Shown here: positions 41,400 through 42,306 of the stretch, piece after piece
Position numbering within the stretch: position 1 is the stretch's first letter
Layout: each line of letters opens with the position of its first letter
Assembly (NCBI RefSeq): GCF_040450955.1
Contig: NZ_CP144373.1
Coordinates: 972,486 to 1,036,485, forward strand
From: Thermodesulfovibrio sp. 3907-1M
GTDB lineage: Bacteria > Nitrospirota > Thermodesulfovibrionia > Thermodesulfovibrionales > Thermodesulfovibrionaceae
Direction of reading: 5' to 3'
Length of the DNA: 64,000 nt
The notes under the pieces: model-generated
Database searches by the model: none
Told to the model about the DNA's origin: nothing
Seen by the model: the letters and a program-made list of their open reading frames with translations, nothing else
Made by a program: the position numbers and the translations under genes

Positions 41400-41821
41400 A
41401 CTATGTAGATGCCTATTTACAGAGCAGAGTTATGGGAGCAGATGCTCTTGAGCTTATAACAATGCTTTATGAAAGAACAATTGTTTCCCTCAATATTGCA
41501 AAGGATTCAATAATTAAAGGGATTGATGACCCAGAACTCGTAAAGAAAAAGGCTACTGAACTGAACAGAGCAACTGATATAATGTATTATCTCAATGATA
41601 TTCTTGACAGACAGCGGGGTGGAGAAATTGCTGAAAAATTAAGTATAATTTATACAACAATAGCAGGAGAGCTTGTAAGGGCAAACTTATTTAACGATGT
41701 TGAGACAATCTCAAAATGCATAGAAATTTTAGAGAATCTCAAGGCAGCATGGGAAGATGTAAAAAAACAGTTAAAGGAATCAACGTATGAAAAAGAAAAA
41801 CTCTGTGCAACAGCCTTCTAA
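41396..41821 (+). CDS. fliS: Flagellin export chaperone
   Basis: A 141-residue FliS. Family features are MNYVDAYLQSRVMGADALELITMLYERTIVSLNIAKDSI and YYLNDILDRQRGGEIAEKLSIIYTTIAGELVRANLF. It binds the flagellin C-terminus in the cytoplasm and prevents early polymerisation. Operon position after fliD is standard. Confidence 0.94.
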   Translation: MNYVDAYLQSRVMGADALELITMLYERTIVSLNIAKDSIIKGIDDPELVKKKATELNRATDIMYYLNDILDRQRGGEIAEKLSIIYTTIAGELVRANLFNDVETISKCIEILENLKAAWEDVKKQLKESTYEKEKLCATAF

Positions 41822-42053
41822 GGTAAGGAATCTCCTCATTAAGGCTCAGATTGCCCTTGAGGAGAATCGCTATGAAGAAGCTCTCTCAATTGTTAAAGAG
41901 ATCAATGCTGAGGATATGAAAACCTTGCCTTTTGAAGAACTGCAAGCAATTGACAGGGTTTTGGCTTATCTAAATGAGCTTTCTGAGGAAAAGAGAAGAA
42001 ATCTAGCTGATGAACTGAAAAAAATTCAGGCAGGAAAAGAATATCTCAGTTAA
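41787..42053 (+). CDS. Small helical protein at the end of the flagellar operon
   Basis: An 88-residue, highly charged all-helical protein whose start lies inside fliS (35-bp overlap). The middle (LLIKAQIALEENRYEEALSIVKEINAED) looks like one TPR-like hairpin. Its place matches the FliT-like cap chaperone slot after fliS, but no FliT signature is clear, so the role is inferred from position only. It may be a flagellar regulator or a second chaperone. Confidence 0.7.
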   Translation: MKKKNSVQQPSKVRNLLIKAQIALEENRYEEALSIVKEINAEDMKTLPFEELQAIDRVLAYLNELSEEKRRNLADELKKIQAGKEYLS

Positions 42054-42064
42054 AGGTAATACAT

Positions 42065-42256
42065 TTATGCTCTATCACAGGAGCGTCTTGATATAAGCTC
42101 CCATGTTTCTTCATCAATTTCTTCAAGATATTCAGAGACTTTAAATTCTGCTCCGCACTCACTACAGCAGAGCACGATCCTGCTTCAGTAAAAAAATATC
42201 AAAATGGTGCTTTTGCAGTATTTACATTTAGCATTTTTCAAAATTCTTTTTCGCAC
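42065..42256 (-). CDS. Dual-CXXC small selenoprotein (in-frame TGA read as selenocysteine, inferred)
   Basis: A 63-codon frame from GTG 42256 (GAGGT six bases upstream) to TAA 42067-42065 is open except for one TGA at codon 24 (42187-42185). It reads ..KCKYCKSTILIFFY-U-SRIV, then LCCSECGAEFKVSEYLEEID and EETWELISRR. Two CxxC pairs flank the TGA; from memory, related small proteins carry Cys or selenocysteine at this place. Starting 11 bases after the TGA, GCTCTGC can pair with GCGGAGC around a 10-base GT-containing loop, like a bacterial SECIS. Alternatives are a nonsense-broken gene or a shorter peptide. It diverges from DUF763. Confidence 0.7.
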
Positions 42257-42306
42257 CGTAACCTCTGATTTGAAGTTTTTAATTGTTTTATATTTTATAA
42301 TAAATT

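Follow-up and report, generated by a model that had tools for sequence, protein, structure and literature searches.

A UGA-containing gene of the NF041197 family in Thermodesulfovibrio predicted to encode a small selenoprotein with two CxxC motifs

Introduction

The closest described relatives of the gene analyzed here belong to NCBIfam family NF041197 ('CxxC_Se_CxxC', dual CXXC motif small (seleno)protein), which a 2026 review places twice among the known prokaryotic selenoproteins, as OS_HP3 and as hypothetical protein DW (PMC13188914). The review credits OS_HP3 to a 2007 study of Olavius symbionts and DW to deep-Sep in 2025 (PMC13188914). The two names appear to be a double entry in the literature of a single family, with SMF39960.1 serving as the OS_HP3 example in 2022 and as the DW example in 2026 (PMC9312934, PMC13188914). 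Because NF041197 is already in the review, the family counts as known, though it is still classed as hypothetical, and we found no functional context proposed for it in the literature searched. The same review gives a model of the bacterial selenocysteine insertion element (bSECIS), with a stem of 4-16 bp, a minimum free energy (MFE) of at most -7.5 kcal/mol, an apical loop of 3-9 nt, a distance of 16-37 nt from UGA to loop, and G in the first two loop positions (PMC13188914).

The DNA studied here is a stretch of 64,000 nucleotides, the window, from the 1.94-Mb single-contig genome of Thermodesulfovibrio sp. 3907-1M. It holds a gene of the kind that an ordinary gene caller would drop, and on comparative sequence evidence we put the probability that this is a functional selenoprotein gene of NF041197, with UGA decoded as selenocysteine (Sec), at about 96%. 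Like the rest of the family, it has a Sec or Cys position flanked by two CxxC motifs, and a C-terminal R-x-[SP]-[CS]-[DN]-R. Thermodesulfovibrio members differ in a basic N-terminal extension (VRKRILKNAK), in carrying Y-U-[SRT] where the family usually has G-U-[RK], and in a longer, register-shifted SECIS stem.

Results

A 63-residue frame with one in-frame TGA

The gene occupies positions 42065..42256 on the minus strand, as delimited by translation with TGA read as U, by hmmscan, and by comparison with congeneric homologues. Re-reading the sequence reproduced what the initial annotation had described, namely a 63-codon minus-strand frame with GAGGT ahead of a GTG start and a single TGA at codon 24. 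The Shine-Dalgarno-like GAGGT (42261..42265) lies 4 nt ahead of the GTG (42254..42256), and the frame closes with TAA (42065-42067). The congeners compared have GTG, ATG, or TTG at the equivalent codon, preceded at the equivalent position by a GGAGG-like or weaker ribosome site. With the TGA (42185..42187) read as U, the product is VRKRILKNAKCKYCKSTILIFFYUSRIVLCCSECGAEFKVSEYLEEIDEETWELISRRSCDRA. The first CxxC, CKYC at residues 11-14 (42215..42226, minus strand), and the second, CSEC at residues 31-34 (42155..42166, minus strand), are predicted metal knuckles 1 and 2. In 31 homologues C11, C14, residue 24, C31, and C34 are invariant when U is shown as C.

Frames interrupted by one TGA are commonplace: the window has 31 comparable cases, and 20 random windows generated by a Markov-1 model have 35-54 apiece. 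The window has a single CxxC-U-CxxC arrangement, and none of the random windows has one. TGA serves elsewhere as an ordinary stop, in 17 of 45 long frames; the code is thus the standard one.

The family that the initial annotation had pointed to, with Cys or Sec between two CxxC motifs, proved to be NF041197; hmmscan gives 48 bits (curated cut-off 40 bits, Sec at codon 24 scored as Cys), residues 11-62 aligning with positions 1-52 of the 53 in the model. All 31 members of the homologue alignment match this model. A Pfam search with the selenoprotein gave no family above cut-off, and no homologues were found in viral contigs or plasmids.

UGA is nearly fixed in the class and is replaced only by Cys in the homologues read

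The family is carried by much of the bacterial class. In a survey of 246 Nitrospirota genomes it was present in 88, with one in-frame TGA in 83 and none in 5; another two genomes, which matched only weakly and in part, were not counted. Homologues were present in every Thermodesulfovibrio genome examined, and 28 of 30 relatives matched at E <= 0.1, the 27 strong matches comprising 26 TGA forms and one TGA-free form. All six TGA-free forms that were read, including one congener outside the survey, have Cys exactly at the UGA column (L032/L086, L040/L128, L042/L087, L046/L127, L125, and L126), which is the alignment that the initial annotation had proposed as support for Sec. Purifying selection acts on the protein both before and after the TGA, and the downstream half is conserved as well. 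One congener has a second, weaker partial match with an in-frame TGA (G010:C1:1672641-1672763; 41% identity over residues 9-49), possibly a paralogue or a decaying copy.

Constraint at the RNA level on the hairpin downstream of the UGA

A hairpin at 42149..42174 (minus strand), identified by MFE, synonymous constraint, and consensus fold, begins 10 nt past the UGA and has an 8-bp stem (UGCUCUGC/GCGGAGCA; 42174-42167 paired with 42156-42149) closed by a 10-nt loop, UGUAGUGAGU. The initial annotation had given a 7-bp stem with a 10-base loop at an offset of 11; the hairpin and its loop stand, and the stem is in fact 8 bp at 10 nt, removal of the outer pair returning the values first stated. The second CxxC is encoded by the loop and the beginning of the 3' arm.

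The MFE of this hairpin in a 51-nt segment is -15.3 kcal/mol, compared with -8.2 +/- 2.7 for synonymous recodings, and lies below about 99% of them. Among 14 congeneric Sec forms, pairs with the same residue use an identical codon 91% of the time over codons 28-37, a stretch that extends only a few bases past the 8-bp hairpin; the figure is 61% ahead of the TGA, 36% for codons 25-27, and 49% beyond codon 37. The hairpin was also recovered in the consensus fold of these 14 congeners, within which pairs change on one side only, from U-G to C-G and to U-A. The genus offers a natural Sec/Cys comparison: its Cys form uses other synonymous codons at the hairpin and has no such hairpin.

Outside the genus the element takes the form GCUGCA-NGKNN-UGCGGC, with 22 nt from UGA to loop. 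Across the order, 96.5% of the cells of this 6-bp hairpin are paired, compared with at most 57% in slid registers, and two of its six pairs have changed on both sides, a covariation score reached by none of 500 shuffles. The energy test is variable outside the genus, where some members are not below their synonymous recodings. On this comparative evidence the hairpin is under selection as RNA.

The window hairpin fits the published bSECIS model in its stem (8 bp), energy (-15.3 kcal/mol), distance to the loop (18 nt), and loop sequence, which begins U-G-U; its 10-nt loop, in the MFE register, is slightly longer than the 3-9 nt modeled. When the stem is paired in the register used elsewhere in the order, the loop shrinks to 5 nt (GUGAG), and two of the pairs are G-U. 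Both registers have a G as the first or second loop base, with U or G next to it on the 3' side, and the order-wide loop carries G and then G or U, as expected of bSECIS elements. The genus seems to use a longer stem that is register-shifted relative to the rest of the order. An Rfam search of the hairpin region returned no match.

These results also bear on whether the TGA marks decay or a sequencing error, an old Cys codon having mutated in a gene now being lost. TGT or TGC becomes TGA in a single step, and Cys forms do exist. Yet all 14 Thermodesulfovibrio Sec forms compared carry the TGA, as do 83 of the 88 phylum members, and selection still maintains the protein beyond it and the synonymous sites of the hairpin. 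Conservation on this scale refutes the pseudogene reading, to which we assign only a vanishing probability.

The genome encodes the machinery for Sec

All of the genes that the initial annotation had named for a search, selA, selB, selC, and selD, are present in the window genome: selA, selB (396 bits, cut-off 242), a tRNA-Sec with a UCA anticodon, and selD (C1:1257371-1258291; L145:794-1915), whose own frame is likewise interrupted by a TGA, within an N-terminal AGUAAKI stretch. Read through this TGA, the selD frame runs on past another TGA close to its end, and this later codon is probably where translation really stops.

Across the phylum, selA was found in 79 of the 83 genomes with a TGA form but in only 24 of 158 genomes without the family (Fisher p 2e-36, not corrected for phylogeny). 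Among genomes with a Cys form, three (G195, G247, and G249) have neither selA nor a selB above cut-off, the incomplete G006 has no selB, and two (G174 and G241) keep both genes. Neither gene was found in three assemblies with a TGA form (G067, G151, and G221); these are fragmented, so that loss of the Sec machinery and an assembly gap are both possible. A fourth TGA-form genome, G215, lacks selA and has selB.

The open frame does not by itself identify the inserted residue, and the UGA could in principle be read as another amino acid, such as Trp, or be passed by general stop readthrough. Against this, the homologous forms that were read have Cys and never Trp, TGA is a normal stop in the genome, the sel machinery is present and co-distributed with the family, and a SECIS-like hairpin follows the UGA; we therefore regard decoding other than as Sec as very improbable. 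A UGA that in the homologues read is either kept or replaced by Cys, conservation of both halves of the protein, a constrained hairpin, and the presence of SelA, SelB, SelD, and tRNA-Sec together make decoding of the UGA as Sec all but certain, as far as sequence goes. The computational checks proposed in the initial annotation all came out positive, and none of the observations that it had named as counting against Sec (a genome devoid of sel genes, homologues ending ahead of the TGA or carrying unrelated residues there, and an unconserved downstream half) was found.

Discussion

A predicted zinc ribbon with Sec in the hairpin turn

An AlphaFold2 model built with the 31 homologues (pLDDT 83) has strands at residues 2-10, 17-22, and 27-31, followed by two helices (40-43 and 49-56); residue 24 falls in the turn that joins the second and third strands. 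Foldseek matches were weak (all E > 0.1) and mostly zinc ribbons or zinc fingers, and a sequence search of solved structures likewise returned only weak zinc-finger or zinc-ribbon matches. The model shares the order CxxC, beta-hairpin, CxxC with zinc-ribbon domains such as Elf1, small RNA-polymerase subunits, and the TFIIB/eIF2-beta zinc domains, and differs from them in having Sec or Cys in the hairpin turn; no sequence or fold match to these domains was significant. The protein is probably zinc-ribbon-like and, with no signal peptide or membrane segment seen by eye, probably cytosolic. We propose that its two CxxC knuckles together would form a site for one metal ion, probably Zn, and that Sec, placed by the predicted secondary structure in the hairpin turn and away from the metal, may act as an exposed nucleophile.

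As the initial annotation suggested, such a protein could have a redox or a metal-handling role. The role that we tentatively rank as most likely is as the small partner of a larger protein, in selenol/thiol redox chemistry or ligand transfer. It might instead be a small chaperone or scavenger of a metal or metalloid (Zn, Hg, Se, or As), an option we consider possible but doubtful. Six Cys and one Sec within 63 residues, two CxxC motifs, and a weak resemblance to HypA's metal-chaperone ribbon all speak for metal handling; the recurrent neighbors of the gene, on the other hand, include no recognized metal transporter or resistance gene.

Recurrent neighbors and a candidate partner

Within 1.5 kb downstream, 21 of 61 distinct loci carry a gene for a YacP-type NYN RNase (PF05991), as in L075, where it lies about 170-705 bases past the gene, and in L108, L110, L112, and L114. 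A divergently transcribed gene for an undescribed Cys-rich protein of about 175 residues lies within 1.5 kb in 16 of the 61 loci (for example L086:7390-7932 and L083:7390-7923, both minus strand), and a gene for a PF03692 (YkgJ) protein directly downstream in 10. In several congeners, including a Cys form, the Cys-rich gene adjoins the selenoprotein gene; in the window genome it is elsewhere (C1:1305262-1305786) and not adjacent.

The Cys-rich protein carries C-X2-C-X3-CC invariantly, followed by further Cys residues and an RCNW(Y/H/F)xC stretch, in the overall pattern CX2CX3CC...C...GC...RP.RCNW.FC. It was found in 65 of the 88 genomes with the selenoprotein family, and not in the other 23, compared with 8 of the 158 without it, and the odds ratio for co-occurrence is 9 within selA-positive genomes. 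It resembles PF03692 (YkgJ) in a Cys cluster ending in CC followed by further conserved Cys and, by eye, its CX2CX3CC recalls the CX4CX3CC of FliB, which binds [4Fe-4S] (PMC8598068), with a different spacing. Given this motif and the lack of any credible Pfam or NCBIfam match, we do not claim membership in PF03692 or FliB for the Cys-rich protein; a fold search with it gave no PDB match.

The recurrence of the Cys-rich and YacP-type NYN neighbors suggests a functional module, and it gives a testable hypothesis for a selenoprotein family still classed as hypothetical. If the selenoprotein is a redox or ligand-transfer partner, the best candidate for the larger protein would be the divergently encoded Cys-rich protein found beside its gene in many relatives. 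One speculative extension, which we hold with low confidence, is that the selenoprotein and the Cys-rich protein, joined in some lineages by a YkgJ-type protein and a YacP NYN RNase, form a selenium-dependent module of Nitrospirota in which the Sec zinc ribbon would service an Fe-S-like or metal center of the Cys-rich protein.

The NYN neighbor also raises the idea of an RNA- or ribosome-associated factor working with the RNase. YacP/Rae1 is a ribosome-dependent mRNase, zinc ribbons are often nucleic-acid binders, and the NYN gene lies downstream in the 21 loci noted above. The link is nonetheless lost at the window locus and in many relatives, and we consider an RNA role unlikely.

Two locations of the gene are seen within Thermodesulfovibrio (L102-L115; window 41787-42256), one beside fliS/fliD-like flagellar genes, as in the window genome and several others, and one between the Cys-rich and NYN genes. 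The selenoprotein gene has thus moved. The flagellar operon next door was considered as a clue to function and set aside, since other congeners carry the gene between the Cys-rich and NYN genes. At 41787-42053 on the plus strand, the flagellar cluster of the window closes with a gene for an 88-residue protein that has no Pfam family above cut-off and is conserved in Thermodesulfovibrio.
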